Source of the DNA: Candidatus Gastranaerophilales bacterium
Lineage (GTDB): Bacteria; Cyanobacteriota; Vampirovibrionia; Gastranaerophilales; Gastranaerophilaceae
DNA: 47,960 nt
Assembly (NCBI GenBank): GCA_944323195.1
Contig: CALURR010000011.1
Span: forward strand, 1-47,960
Reading direction: 5' to 3'
Made by a program: the position numbers and the translations under genes. This document shows, piece after piece, positions 9,432 through 47,960 of the stretch. How positions within the stretch are numbered: the first letter of the stretch is position 1; each line of letters begins with the position of its first letter. The notes under the pieces are model-generated. The model was not told where the DNA came from, did not search any database, and saw only the letters and a program-made list of their open reading frames with translations.

Positions 9432-11996
9432 ATGAATACAAGCACAAAAACTTTTTTCCACCAAAAACATTTCACTATATTATTTTCGCTATTCTATATT
9501 TTTGGCGCATTAGGCTGTTTTCATAACAATGCAATAATATTTGCCCTTATAGCTTTCGTTATTTTAGCTATTTTAATTTTTATTTTTGATTATGATAAAA
9601 AGAAAATATTAATTTTATATTTAATATTTTTTGCCGGCTTTATTAGAGTCAACTTAGATAAAAACGAAGATATTTTAAAGGACATAAATTGCTCAAAAGC
9701 TGAAATAGAAGGTAAAATTATAAGCTCAAAAGATATTTCATATAAAAATCACAAAATAGAATTTTATCTTGATACAACAAAAGCTAAAATTTTCAATAAA
9801 ACATTTTCAGACATTCATTCTAAAATTCTTGTCAGCATCAATTATGACAAAGATATTGAAAACATAATAAAAATTGGAAATGAAGTTAGAATTAAAGGAA
9901 AACTAAGAACACCAAAAGAAGCAACAAATCCTTATCAATTTGACTATAAAAAATATCTTTCAAATAATGATTGCTATAGTGTATTTTATTCCAATGACAA
10001 TGAACTTGAACTTATAAAAACATCAAGCTTTAACCATAATTTAAAAAACAATTGGTATCATATTTTAGCTAACTTTGAAAAAACAAGAGAGAAAATCATT
10101 AAACAACACTCCAAAAATATAAAATCACCAAATTTAGAAATATTGGGCGGAATTGTTTTTGGAGATGAAACAATAAACCCTGATGAAAGCATAAAAGAAA
10201 ATTTTAAAAACTCAGGATTATTACATCTTTTAGCTGCAAGCGGTTTAAATGTTGCCCTAATTTATGGAATTTGGTGGTGGATTGCAAGTTTAATAAAATT
10301 ACCGTATAAGCTCTCAATTCTAACAGGCGGCGTTTTTGTTATTTTATATACATTTATGACAGGTTTTCCACCCTCCATTTTAAGAGCTTCTTTAATGCTT
10401 TTGTTTGTATTATTTGGCAAATTAATAGATAGAGACACAGACTCAATTGCTCTTATTTCATTTGTCGGATTTTTAATTCTCCTTTTTAACCCAAAAATGA
10501 TTTTTGATATTGGTTTTCAACTATCTTTTATAGTGACATTGGGTTTAATTATTTGCTGCCCTGTTATTATAGAAAAATTCAAAAAACAAGATGAAAAATA
10601 TAAAGAAAAAAACAAAAACAAAACTCGTTTTGAAAAATATATTTTATTCCTATTTTCCCCTGTTAATCTTGCCTCCTTAATTTGCGTACCCTTTATTGCA
10701 CAATTATGGGTAATACCTTTGCAAATGCATTATTTTAACAATCTTGCACCTTTGAGCATATTTGCCAATATCGCCGTTGTGCCATTTATTGGTATATTAA
10801 GTTTTATAGGATTTTTGAGCTCGATTTTAGCCCTTGTTCCCAAAATTTCCGATTTTTGTGTTCTAATTTTTGACACAATTGCAAACCCTCTGATTAGTTT
10901 GTTGGTCAAAATAAGCGAATTTTTCTCATCTTTTAAATATTCTCTTATTGCAACAATGGGCTTTAATAGTTTTCAGATATTTAGTTTTTGGATTTTAATT
11001 TTATTATTTATTTTAAATTTAAAAAATAATTTTAAAAAAACAAAACATATAATCATCTTTATTTCTTGTATTTTAATTTTTCTTATAAGCTTTATTAAAC
11101 CCGCTCATTTTCAAAATAATCTTGAAATAATAATGTTTGACGTTGAAAATGCTGACTGCTTTTTGATTAAAACCCCAAAAAATAAATATATTATGATTGA
11201 TAGCGGCAAAATAATTTATCAATCAACCAATAGCGCACAAAATGTTATTTTACCTTATTTAAGAAACGAAAGAATAAATTCACTTGAAATCCTTGAAATA
11301 ACACACTTTGATTCTGACCATTGCGGAGGTGCGCTTGATTTATTAAAAAATATCAAAATAAAAGAAATTGTAATTCAAAAAGAAGAAACAAAATCAGAAA
11401 TTTCAGACTCAATTATGAAATACATAAAAGATAAAAAGATGAATTATTTCATTGCAAAAAATAACGAGCTGATATACGAAGAAAAAGACCTCAAAATCAA
11501 AACCTTTAAAGCAAATTTCAACAAAAATAATGATAAATCAGATAACGAAGAATCAATAATTACCCTTTTAACCTATAAAAACAAAAACTACCTATTTATG
11601 GCAGATTGCGGAATTGAAGGCTTTAATAAAATCAAAAAAGATATTCAAGGCGAAATTGAAATATTAAAAGTAGGACACCATGGCGCTAAAAATGTTATAA
11701 ATCAACCTATGATAAATCAACTAAAGCCAAAATATGCCCTAATTTCCACAGGGCTAAACAAATTTAATCATCCTCATTATTCAACAATTATTCTATTATC
11801 TGATAATAAAATAAATACAATCTCAAGCAAAAATTATGGTTTTTGCAAAATAATTATAAATAAAAGTCTTAAAACCGATTTTAAACATTACAACAAAGAA
11901 ACTAGCTCAATTAAAGATGTTTTATTTGATAAAAAAGATTCACTTCCCTTTCATAAAAGTGAATTTATGCAAAAATTAATAAAAGAAAACTCTTAA
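9432..11996 (+). CDS. comEC: ComEC/Rec2-type DNA uptake channel with metallo-beta-lactamase domain
   Basis: Inner-membrane channel that imports single-stranded DNA during natural transformation. The 854 residues show the full architecture: N-terminal membrane helices and a DUF4131/OB-like soluble part (about 1-200), the Competence domain with the hallmark GLLHLLAASGLNVALIYG (about 265) and many hydrophobic helices to about 540, then a metallo-beta-lactamase domain with THFDSDH (H625, D627, D629, H630) and GHHGAKN. An intact HxDxDH suggests a working nuclease-type site. The ATG at 9432 is preferred over the TTG at 9423; it follows the ftsY stop by 1 nt. Together with the prepilins at 20.4-23 kb it suggests transformation capacity, although comEA, comF and pilus motor genes are not in the window. 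Confidence 0.92.
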   Translation: MNTSTKTFFHQKHFTILFSLFYIFGALGCFHNNAIIFALIAFVILAILIFIFDYDKKKILILYLIFFAGFIRVNLDKNEDILKDINCSKAEIEGKIISSKDISYKNHKIEFYLDTTKAKIFNKTFSDIHSKILVSINYDKDIENIIKIGNEVRIKGKLRTPKEATNPYQFDYKKYLSNNDCYSVFYSNDNELELIKTSSFNHNLKNNWYHILANFEKTREKIIKQHSKNIKSPNLEILGGIVFGDETINPDESIKENFKNSGLLHLLAASGLNVALIYGIWWWIASLIKLPYKLSILTGGVFVILYTFMTGFPPSILRASLMLLFVLFGKLIDRDTDSIALISFVGFLILLFNPKMIFDIGFQLSFIVTLGLIICCPVIIEKFKKQDEKYKEKNKNKTRFEKYILFLFSPVNLASLICVPFIAQLWVIPLQMHYFNNLAPLSIFANIAVVPFIGILSFIGFLSSILALVPKISDFCVLIFDTIANPLISLLVKISEFFSSFKYSLIATMGFNSFQIFSFWILILLFILNLKNNFKKTKHIIIFISCILIFLISFIKPAHFQNNLEIIMFDVENADCFLIKTPKNKYIMIDSGKIIYQSTNSAQNVILPYLRNERINSLEILEITHFDSDHCGGALDLLKNIKIKEIVIQKEETKSEISDSIMKYIKDKKMNYFIAKNNELIYEEKDLKIKTFKANFNKNNDKSDNEESIITLLTYKNKNYLFMADCGIEGFNKIKKDIQGEIEILKVGHHGAKNVINQPMINQLKPKYALISTGLNKFNHPHYSTIILLSDNKINTISSKNYGFCKIIINKSLKTDFKHYNKETSSIKDVLFDKKDSLPFHKSEFMQKLIKENS

Positions 11997-11997
11997 T

Positions 11998-12027
11998 TTG
12001 AAAAAACAATTTCCCCGTTATATAATG
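11998..12027 (+). promoter_or_regulatory. Candidate promoter of map
   Basis: TTGAAA (11998-12003), an 18-nt spacer and TATAAT (12022-12027), 32 nt before the map ATG. It begins just after the comEC stop. Confidence 0.6.
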
Positions 12028-12059
12028 TAGTCGCCTAAAAGAAAATAAGGAATTTTACC

Positions 12060-12809
12060 ATGATACATAAAAAATCAAGAGAAGAAATAAAATTAATGCG
12101 ACATGCCGGAAATATCGTAGCTCTTGTTCATCAGGAAATGAAAAAAGTAATCGAACCGGGAATTTCCACTCTTGAACTTGATAAAATTGCTTATGATATT
12201 ATCAAAAAAAATAAAGCTATTCCAACTTTTTTAGGCTATGCAGGCTTTCCTAATTCAATCTGCGCTTCAATTAACGAACAAGTTGTCCATGGGATACCTT
12301 CTAAAGACGCTATTTTAAAAGAAGGGGATGTTATTTCAATTGATGTTGGCGCAACCTTTAGAGGAATGGTGGGAGATGGCGCTTGGACATATCCTGTGGG
12401 AAAAATTAGCCCTGAAGTTGAAAATCTTTTAAAAGTAACCGAAAAGGCTCTATTTAAAGGAATTGAACAAATGATTCCAAATAACCCTTTAGAAAATGTT
12501 TCAGCTGCTATTGAAGATGTTGCACTTGAGGCAAAAGTAGGAATTGTAAGACAATATGGCGGTCATGGCGTTGGAAGAGAAATGCACGAAGACCCATTTT
12601 TATTTAATTATCGAACAAATTCCGACATAATTATCAAAAATAATTGCGCAATAGCAATTGAACCAATGTTTAATCTCGGTTGTGACGATGTCCATACTCT
12701 GGCCGATGAATGGACAGTTGTAACAGATGATAAAAAACCATCTGCACACTTCGAACACACTGTAGTCGCAACACAAGACGGTCCAATTATAACAACTGTT
12801 TTATTATAA
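12060..12809 (+). CDS. map: Methionine aminopeptidase, type I
   Basis: Removes the initiator methionine from nascent proteins and is a cytosolic dinuclear metalloenzyme. All five metal ligands can be placed: D95 (IDVGATF), D106 (VGDGAW), H169 (GGHGVGREMHE), E201 (AIEPMF) and E232 (HFEHTVV). The 249-residue length and absence of an N-terminal zinc extension fit type Ia. The ATG follows AATAAGGAATTTTACC, a clear ribosome binding site. It stands as a single-gene unit with its own promoter. Confidence 0.97.
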   Translation: MIHKKSREEIKLMRHAGNIVALVHQEMKKVIEPGISTLELDKIAYDIIKKNKAIPTFLGYAGFPNSICASINEQVVHGIPSKDAILKEGDVISIDVGATFRGMVGDGAWTYPVGKISPEVENLLKVTEKALFKGIEQMIPNNPLENVSAAIEDVALEAKVGIVRQYGGHGVGREMHEDPFLFNYRTNSDIIIKNNCAIAIEPMFNLGCDDVHTLADEWTVVTDDKKPSAHFEHTVVATQDGPIITTVLL

Positions 12810-46995: not shown

Positions 46996-47352
46996 CTATG
47001 CAAAATATGGTTCCCAAGCACAACCATCAATTGAATCAGCTCTATTTGAAACATCTGCTATAAGTTCACCTGTGCCATTATTTTGAGGAACACTAAAACC
47101 ATCAAAAGCTGCACCGTTAACATTTTGTGATGATTTTGGAGCTTGAGCTTGACCAACTTTTGAAGCAAATAAATTTCCATCGATATATTGTTGTGCTCTT
47201 TCAAAATCTTCAACACTTGGTTTATAGCTTGGATTTACTTGTGCAGTAGTAGAAGGCATTTGATAATAATTTTGTTGATTACTGCGTTGCACATTGTATT
47301 TGTTATAGTTTGGAGATGTTGCTTGTAAAAATTGTAAACCTTCGATTGCCAT
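46996..47352 (-). CDS. Small Gln/Asn-rich protein of unknown function
   Basis: 118 residues, MAIEGLQFLQATSPNYNKYN at the start, no signal peptide or membrane segment, rich in Gln, Asn, Ser and Tyr, ending CAWEPYFA. A TATAGT lies 5 nt before the ATG with no Shine-Dalgarno, another short-leader arrangement. It is convergent with the coiled-coil gene across a shared terminator; their similar low-complexity, leader-free character suggests related secreted or surface roles, without proof. Confidence 0.55.
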   Translation of the reverse strand: MAIEGLQFLQATSPNYNKYNVQRSNQQNYYQMPSTTAQVNPSYKPSVEDFERAQQYIDGNLFASKVGQAQAPKSSQNVNGAAFDGFSVPQNNGTGELIADVSNRADSIDGCAWEPYFA

Positions 47353-47451
47353 AATAAACTATACCTATACTAATTTCTATATATTTAAAAAGTATTTTTT
47401 TAATTAAAAATTGCGTATATTTTAAAAAATTTACATTTGTTAATATCCCTA

Positions 47452-47484
47452 AACGAGCGAACTTTAGTTCACTGGGTGAACTTA
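47452..47484. repeat. 33-nt direct repeat, copy 1
   Basis: Begins AACGAGCGAACTTTAGTTCA and ends GGGTGAACTTA. It is identical to copy 2 at 47720-47752 except for one base (T here, A there) in the small loop of the internal inverted repeat. Confidence 0.9.
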
Positions 47485-47719
47485 GTGAGCGAAGTTTGGG
47501 GCGTTGGTGTATGAAGAACCTTTTGAAGTTTGAGCTTAGTCCGACTGGACTTGGCGAAAACAAAAAAGGCATAAGGTGTGTGCCGAGAACGCCGAAGCGT
47601 TGAGCTTTGGCGTTTGAGAAACCTTACCCAATTGACGTGGAAATTTTTAATTTCCACAGGAACACTCGTGACGGCGGACCGTTGAGGTCCGGCGGACAGA
47701 ACGGATACCGTACCACATT

Positions 47720-47752
47720 AACGAGCGAACTTTAGTTCACAGGGTGAACTTA
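47720..47752. repeat. 33-nt direct repeat, copy 2
   Basis: Matches copy 1 at 32 of 33 positions, 268 nt downstream. The single difference lies in the loop of the AGTTCAC/GTGAACT hairpin, so the stem is preserved. Confidence 0.9.
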
Positions 47753-47960
47753 AAAGCGTGAGCCGGAGTGAAGCCGTTAAAAAAATGACAATGCGTGGAG
47801 CATTGGCATTTTTAGGCTGTAACTATCGATAGGCGATGCCCACAATCCCTTAGCGAACTTGTGAGCTTTAGGGATTGGAAACACCCTTGGGGTGCGTAGG
47901 ATAATCGAGGCTGTGAGGCGACTTTAGCCGAACAGAGCCGAGATACCCACAGGAGCAAAA

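Follow-up and report, generated by a model that had tools for sequence, protein, structure and literature searches.

The window analysed here, a stretch of 47,960 nucleotides from a Candidatus Gastranaerophilales bacterium (class Vampirovibrionia; contig C11:1-47960), ends in a hairpin-dense tract (47440-47960) that we consider very likely to be an array of hitherto undescribed mobile elements, a family of small and non-autonomous units shared by Gastranaerophilales and their Mu-like phages. The tract has a G+C content of 0.480 as opposed to 0.291 elsewhere in the window, and the maximum among 939 other 521-nt windows was 0.426. Its folding energy of -191.7 kcal/mol is also far from the mean (-89.9) and the minimum (-151.7) of sampled windows of the same length. 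At least seven hairpins were seen upon folding, and a 33-nt direct repeat (47452-47484 and 47720-47752) differs by a single mismatch (47473 T, 47741 A) located in the loop of GTTCAC-(T/A)GG-GTGAAC. The contig end cuts the tract, so that only the left part of the array is visible. An earlier sequence-only reading had described this composition switch, at least seven inverted repeats, a repeat with a loop-only difference and a feature running off the edge, all of which were borne out. Although it was also right about structure and mobility, the single element that it implied gave way to a mosaic of hairpin modules with several nested copies of a unit of ~65-200 nt, rather than one RNA. Apart from a tRNA at 1571-1643, no Rfam family was found in the window at the gathering score, and nothing convincing appeared with E-values up to 5.

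A unit with a conserved frame

The 62 non-redundant units share a consensus consisting of GCG-TRA-GCC, stem P2, a variable P3 hairpin, YGAT-RGGCGACGT, a P4 hairpin and the 3' end CACAGGAGC. P1 is formed by the pairing of GCGT with ACGT and GCC with GGC, and P2 covaries (U-A/C-G; U-A/A-U/G-C). The length of the P3 hairpin is not fixed, and a C-GNNGA-G cap is common; P3 is missing in the phage copy of L263, and a GAAA loop takes its place in L262 (1838-1898). The sequence of P4 is highly varied, and one of its pairs is GC, AU, UA or CG in 59 of 59 copies. P3 and P4 are freely exchangeable between units, the stem sequence changing with the pairing kept.

In a MAFFT alignment of 25 sequences, the covariation score of 0.307 was not reached by any of 500 shuffles (0.134 +/- 0.013), and controls with slid pairing gave 0.06-0.12. 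The corresponding score for 59 model-aligned copies, an alignment leaning toward the covariance model used to build it, was 0.339 versus 0.127 +/- 0.008 for shuffles (0/500) and 0.04-0.11 for slid controls. An alignment-free check pointed the same way: of 49 distinct interiors, fetched through a fixed flank motif alone, 48 fold below -4 kcal/mol compared with 33% of shuffles. The mean folding z over the 62 units was -3.4, with the + strand being the more stable in 62/62. A strand test by mismatches gave no preference, G.T and A.C being similarly frequent (3 versus 4), and G.A was the commonest. Because of the GAAA and GNNGA loops, the G.A-rich internal loops and the sense bias, we infer that the fold is selected as RNA. 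The tract reached the gathering threshold of no Rfam family, and neither did the arrays of 20 loci, beside which only tRNAs and RNase P RNA scored, or those of 8 further loci.

Occupied and empty sites

The elements insert as discrete cassettes. Their targets are other units, the junctions of phage genes and, with the reading frame kept, the phage genes themselves. The first of these cases is found within a single genome, where an array on contig C25, next to a different gene, is almost the same as that of the window from an AT-rich leader through GGCGA. Compared with C25, the window has exactly 148 extra bases (47517-47664) between TATGAAG and CTCGTGACGG. The insert is one complete unit comprising a leading hairpin, an alpha hairpin and a P4 hairpin ending in ACAGGAACA, and the alignment of the window with C25 revealed no target duplication. 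Past GGCGA, the two arrays carry unlike P4 modules, the window having an extra domain (47837-47894). Some relatives have no array at the window locus (G001, where tsaD is the neighbour, G005 and G024), and in others (G017, G019, G021 and G025) different arrays fill it.

Three phage sites could be compared with empty relatives, the filled and empty members being drawn from different metagenomes. The Mu-like transposase gene (phrog_310) of L263/L287 contains an in-frame insert of 72 nt net that is missing from L288-L290. In the bacterial record L230, ~150 nt are inserted in frame in a Mu-like head gene. L350-L353 do not have this insert, and the gene is consistently shorter in the other relatives, too. 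Both coding insertions are in frame and stop-free, and the reading frame therefore survives. Between two tail genes of L314 there is a further insert; in L315-L319 it is absent, and the genes on either side follow each other without a gap. None of these three sites (L263, L230 and L314) showed a clear target duplication, nor do their left flanks have a tetranucleotide in common.

Sister species also differ in whether an element is present at a given tRNA or protein-gene locus. The tRNA-Arg locus is empty in G001, G003, G004 and G006 and occupied by one copy in G008, by two in tandem in G014 and by other copies in G002 and G020. Partial copies of the tRNA 5' end stopping in the D-loop are found at this locus, with a 35-bp duplication in one G020 locus. 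Tandem arrays often finish, as judged by eye, with a truncated unit stopping near a hairpin loop. A simple target-site duplication was rejected as an explanation for all arrays: the duplicated flank usually holds conserved element sequence (GGATGTG, GCGTAAGCC) and is therefore mostly a truncated second unit. As for the features of miniature inverted-repeat transposable elements (MITEs), the unit ends are not simple inverted repeats, and no clear target duplication is seen at the three phage sites or the window site, but long duplications are present at the tRNA locus.

The same tRNA accepts other sequences. In the tRNA-Arg D-arm of L097, L095 and L141, a different small insert (CCGTCAAGA...TTGCGATATCCAGCTGACAC) occupies the D-loop position used by the elements, and L136 has yet another; because several unlike inserts share one position, it appears to be an insertion hotspot. 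Behind a tRNA-Arg gene in L010 (~11924-12420), L057, L060, L064 and L069, the tRNA 3' end and its terminator are copied several times between units, and many of the terminators are followed by a segment of the tRNA end in reverse complement (GCGCTTGG).

Copies and their distribution

Searches of the genome of the window (1.71 Mb, 131 contigs) placed parts of the tract, in shuffled order, at 44 other sites. These copies lie mostly at contig ends, as would be expected of a repeat that breaks assembly; the metagenome-assembled genomes (MAGs) are fragmented and incomplete, the arrays break contigs, and the right end of the window array itself lies past the contig end. DNA similarity revealed the tract in every one of the 28 genus genomes and in one of the seven genomes sampled from other genera of the family. 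The covariance model gave 2-34 matches per genome in all 28 genus genomes and few in 30 other sampled genomes. A flank-only motif (GACGT N16-46 ACAGGAGC) matched across the order with internal stems that differ yet remain paired, chance matches being included. With a stricter motif, the GTDB collection of ~85,000 prokaryote species yielded 79 stretches, nearly all titled as Gastranaerophilales, Melainabacteria or Cyanobacteria MAGs, the remainder being mostly 'uncultured bacterium' bins plus one labelled Clostridia. A search of INPHARED phage DNA returned no match, and we found no description of such elements in Gastranaerophilales in the open-access literature. L169 and L170, from genomes of two families (G045 and G110), are near-identical stretches with one same element, and the similarity of their sequences suggests phage-borne transfer.

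Gene junctions in phages and cells

Among IMG/VR contigs, L262 has three copies, L264 and L286 two each, L263 one, and L265 one plus weak further matches. Most phage copies are located at gene junctions, and all those examined in context point along the genes. The stop codon of the upstream gene, as read from the sequence, often coincides with the TRA of GCG-TRA or immediately precedes it. At its other end the element closes with AGGAG(C/G), and a brief A-rich spacer separates this from a start codon. The AGGAG near the 3' end lies at ribosome-binding distance before the next start. In cellular genomes, simple open reading frame (ORF) calling found the left neighbour to be co-directional in 53 cases and opposite in 20. 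Many cellular elements begin at or just past a stop codon, and others are found behind an intrinsic terminator or a tRNA gene. Arrays also lie immediately next to the RNase P RNA gene, at its 5' end, in two species of this genus (L031 ~144-452 and L056 ~1495-1810).

Modules of the window array

All modules of the array lie on the + strand. The first (47450-47499), identified by folding and repeat search, is a hairpin containing GAGCGAACTTTAGTTCACTGGGTGAACTTAGTGAGCGAAGTTTGG, with copy 1 of the 33-nt repeat inside, and it recurs beside other genes in the same genome and in relatives. It is followed by the 5' end (GGTGTATGAAG, 47506-47516) of an outer alpha-type hairpin, which the alignment with the uninterrupted C25 copy (L010 reverse) revealed to be split by the nested insertion. 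The nested unit of 148 nt (AACCTTTTGAAG...CACAGGAACA, 47517-47664), delimited by the filled/empty comparison within one genome, consists of three hairpins. Its leading hairpin (CCTTTT...TTAGTCC-GACT-GGACT...AAAAGG, 47517-47569), recognised by folding, is of a type found at other loci with changed stems. The alpha hairpin (47573-47628), supported by fold and model match, has the apical loop C-GTTGA-G, and the beta (P4) hairpin (GACGT-GGAAATTTTTAATTTCC-ACAGGAAC, 47634-47663) folds from a motif common across the order. The rest of the interrupted outer alpha hairpin (CTCGTGACGGCGGACC-GTTGA-GGTCCGG...GATACCGTACC) resumes at 47665-47714, again according to the C25 alignment.

Behind copy 2 of the 33-nt repeat (47720-47752, found by the repeat search), the second full unit extends from GCG-TGA-GCC to CACAGGAGC (47756-47956) and matches positions 1-105 of the covariance model with E=8.9e-5. 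Between its GGCGA and CGT lies the optional extra domain (TGCCCACAATCCC...CACCCTTGGGGTG, 47837-47894), a type recurring in many arrays; the C25 paralogue has GGCGA-CGT with another P4. Fold and model match place the beta (P4) hairpin and the conserved 3' end CACAGGAGC at 47895-47956. The model also matched the window at 47569-47663 (E=0.014), and with E up to 1 it gave no further window matches. Upstream of the array, an AT-rich stretch (window 47345-47420, TATACCTATACTAATTTCTATATATTTAAAAAGTATTTTTTTAATTAAAAATTGC) recurs elsewhere in the same genome and in the genus (query 1193-1291 matches), possibly as a shared promoter of small-protein genes.

Discussion

The sequence-only reading had offered an undescribed structured RNA or a mobile palindromic element. 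Its interpretation was essentially right on both counts: the fold is conserved and covarying with no matching Rfam family, and mobility is evident from the filled/empty site pairs and the occupied and empty tRNA locus. Of the checks it had proposed, the search for copies found them in the same genome and in relatives, the covariation score of the stems exceeded those of all 500 shuffles, and neither an Rfam family nor a protein match was found that explains the tract.

How could such elements spread and be tolerated? A built-in stop and a ribosome-binding site would make insertions into operons tolerable, and this tolerance would in turn allow the elements to persist. Arrays would become longer as elements insert again and again at one place or into one another and as units are duplicated in tandem; the breakpoints may often fall near hairpin loops, and the moving enzyme is probably supplied in trans by the phages or the host. 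More tentatively, we consider it possible that the folded RNA is the transposing or selected form and that the element is a portable gene junction, equipped with a stop and a ribosome-binding site of its own and shielded by a multi-stem fold whose stems can be exchanged, which moves between phage and host and builds combinatorial arrays by self-insertion.

Several observations weigh against a family of mobile elements of this kind. None of five tested enzyme families tracks the elements: Y1_Tnp (PF01797; RAYT) occurs in only one of the 28 genus genomes, all of which have elements, the TnpB-type domain (PF07282) is above the cut-off in 0/58 genomes, IS110 (PF02371) is found in 0/28 and Cas1 (PF01867) above the cut-off in only 3/28 genus genomes, and the reverse transcriptase domain RVT_1 is patchy, missing in the array-rich, incomplete assemblies G019, G021 and G027. 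The conserved hairpins could act as single-stranded DNA instead of the putative RNA. The direction bias of right-hand genes is weak (35 versus 30 by the same ORF calling), and many cellular copies lie outside operon junctions, so that a stop and ribosome-site role cannot cover all of them. The covariance model matches the nested unit of the window weakly and in its 3' part. Moreover, long direct duplications border the tandem copies in bacterial arrays but not the clean phage insertions, a difference that probably reflects a second process in array growth.

The enzyme searches also speak against some specific candidates. An IS110 bridge RNA or an IS605/TnpB omega RNA was rejected as IS110 was absent from the 28 genus genomes and the TnpB-type domain passed the cut-off in none of 58 genomes, CRISPR- or casposon-like integration in view of the three genomes with Cas1, and a retroelement (group II intron or retron) in view of the three incomplete array-rich assemblies missing RVT_1. 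GIY-YIG nucleases were discarded as movers since they occur in nearly all genomes of the order whether arrays are present or not, partly because UvrC carries a GIY-YIG domain. GIY-YIG loci flanked by CTGAA...TTCAG hairpins were seen in L125 and L162 only. In L125 (G019:C1:100000-104500), downstream of the array syntenic with that of the window, a GIY-YIG nuclease gene with an internal stop (G019:C1:102028-102249) sits amid hairpin repeats of a second family, (C/T)GTCACCCTGAACTCGTTTCAGGGTCTTA, members of which also occur within several arrays.

Dispersed palindromic clusters of nested hairpins with hairpin-preserving changes and no clear target duplication at the phage and window sites would also be expected of REPIN/BIME-like repeats (PMC3116915), that is, single-stranded-DNA hairpins moved in trans by RAYT, a Y1 transposase, with the fold selected as DNA. 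We think this unlikely given the single genus genome with Y1_Tnp, the multi-stem units with a fixed frame instead of a doublet of one short inverted REP, and the lack of a common tetranucleotide in the left flanks at the three phage sites. The covarying fold could alternatively belong to a host regulatory RNA (a 3'-end element, an attenuator or a processing element) that was duplicated because of its function and hardly moves by itself. The bias of elements to lie behind a co-directional gene, their clustering at stop codons and the AGGAG spaced ahead of starts in phages are in line with this idea, but presence and absence in sister species, different arrays at one locus, insertion within phage coding genes and nesting all signal mobility, making it an improbable account.

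Spread through RNA, with the folded RNA being reverse-transcribed and integrated, would leave mosaics by template switching and long duplications at tRNA genes or transcript ends. Several features fit this scenario: the elements are sense-oriented and lie at transcript ends, their stems are exchanged in mosaic fashion, the last copy is often truncated near a hairpin loop, and tRNA genes have long duplications. However, the array-rich genomes missing RVT_1 and the phage insertions devoid of the expected long duplications leave it doubtful. Finally, the ribosome might skip the element by translational bypassing of the T4 gene 60 or mitochondrial byp type, landing at GGA with AGGAG near the end. 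As in gene 60 (PMC5009743), some phage copies are flanked by GGA, with a stop near the start and a Shine-Dalgarno-like sequence by the end GGA, yet both copies in coding genes are in frame and stop-free, making skipping unnecessary, and most copies lie between genes. We therefore regard bypassing as very improbable.

Compared with known systems, the family of small mobile elements proposed here has several partial counterparts. Rickettsia palindromic elements (RPEs) are ~100-150 bp long, palindromic and present in many copies in noncoding DNA as well as in frame inside genes (PMC10969869). The likeness to our small, palindromic elements inserted in frame into Mu-like transposase and head genes is an analogy. 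Our units are set apart by a multi-stem covarying frame with stop and AGGAG boundaries, by nested arrays and by their presence in phages, and they belong to another phylum. REPINs and BIMEs form mosaic clusters of extragenic hairpins with compensatory changes and insert into one another (PMC3116915), much like the nested clusters described here. In contrast to them, 27 of the 28 genus genomes have no RAYT, our elements reside in coding genes and phages, and the P1-P4 unit has unlike ends, GCGTRAGCC and CACAGGAGC, instead of forming a REP doublet. In a related branch, Cyanobacteria, the small dispersed repeats (SDR) of Nostoc are very small mobile repeats inserting in other repeats. The Nostoc SDR are named in PMC3116915. 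They are much shorter than our units and are not known to have the conserved frame. Mitochondrial GC clusters, double-hairpin elements and byp elements (for the last, PMC5009743) are likewise tiny mobile nested hairpins tolerated in genes, but they are organellar and are not known to have a conserved frame of stop and ribosome-binding site, and bypassing is not needed for the elements described here. Since the elements fail the RAYT and REP-doublet tests and match no Rfam family, we class them as palindromic mobile elements of small size that form a new family with an unusual RNA-like anatomy, not as members of the RPEs or REPINs.

The array modules at many contig ends of the studied MAG probably contribute to its assembly breaks. 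The covariance model is a tool for finding copies and for seeking the moving enzyme, and the filled and empty pairs make the transposition of a tiny structured element testable. The stop and AGGAG boundaries suggest how insertions can spare an operon, and with these elements an order of gut bacteria that has been little studied gains a family of mobile structured elements spread throughout the lineage.
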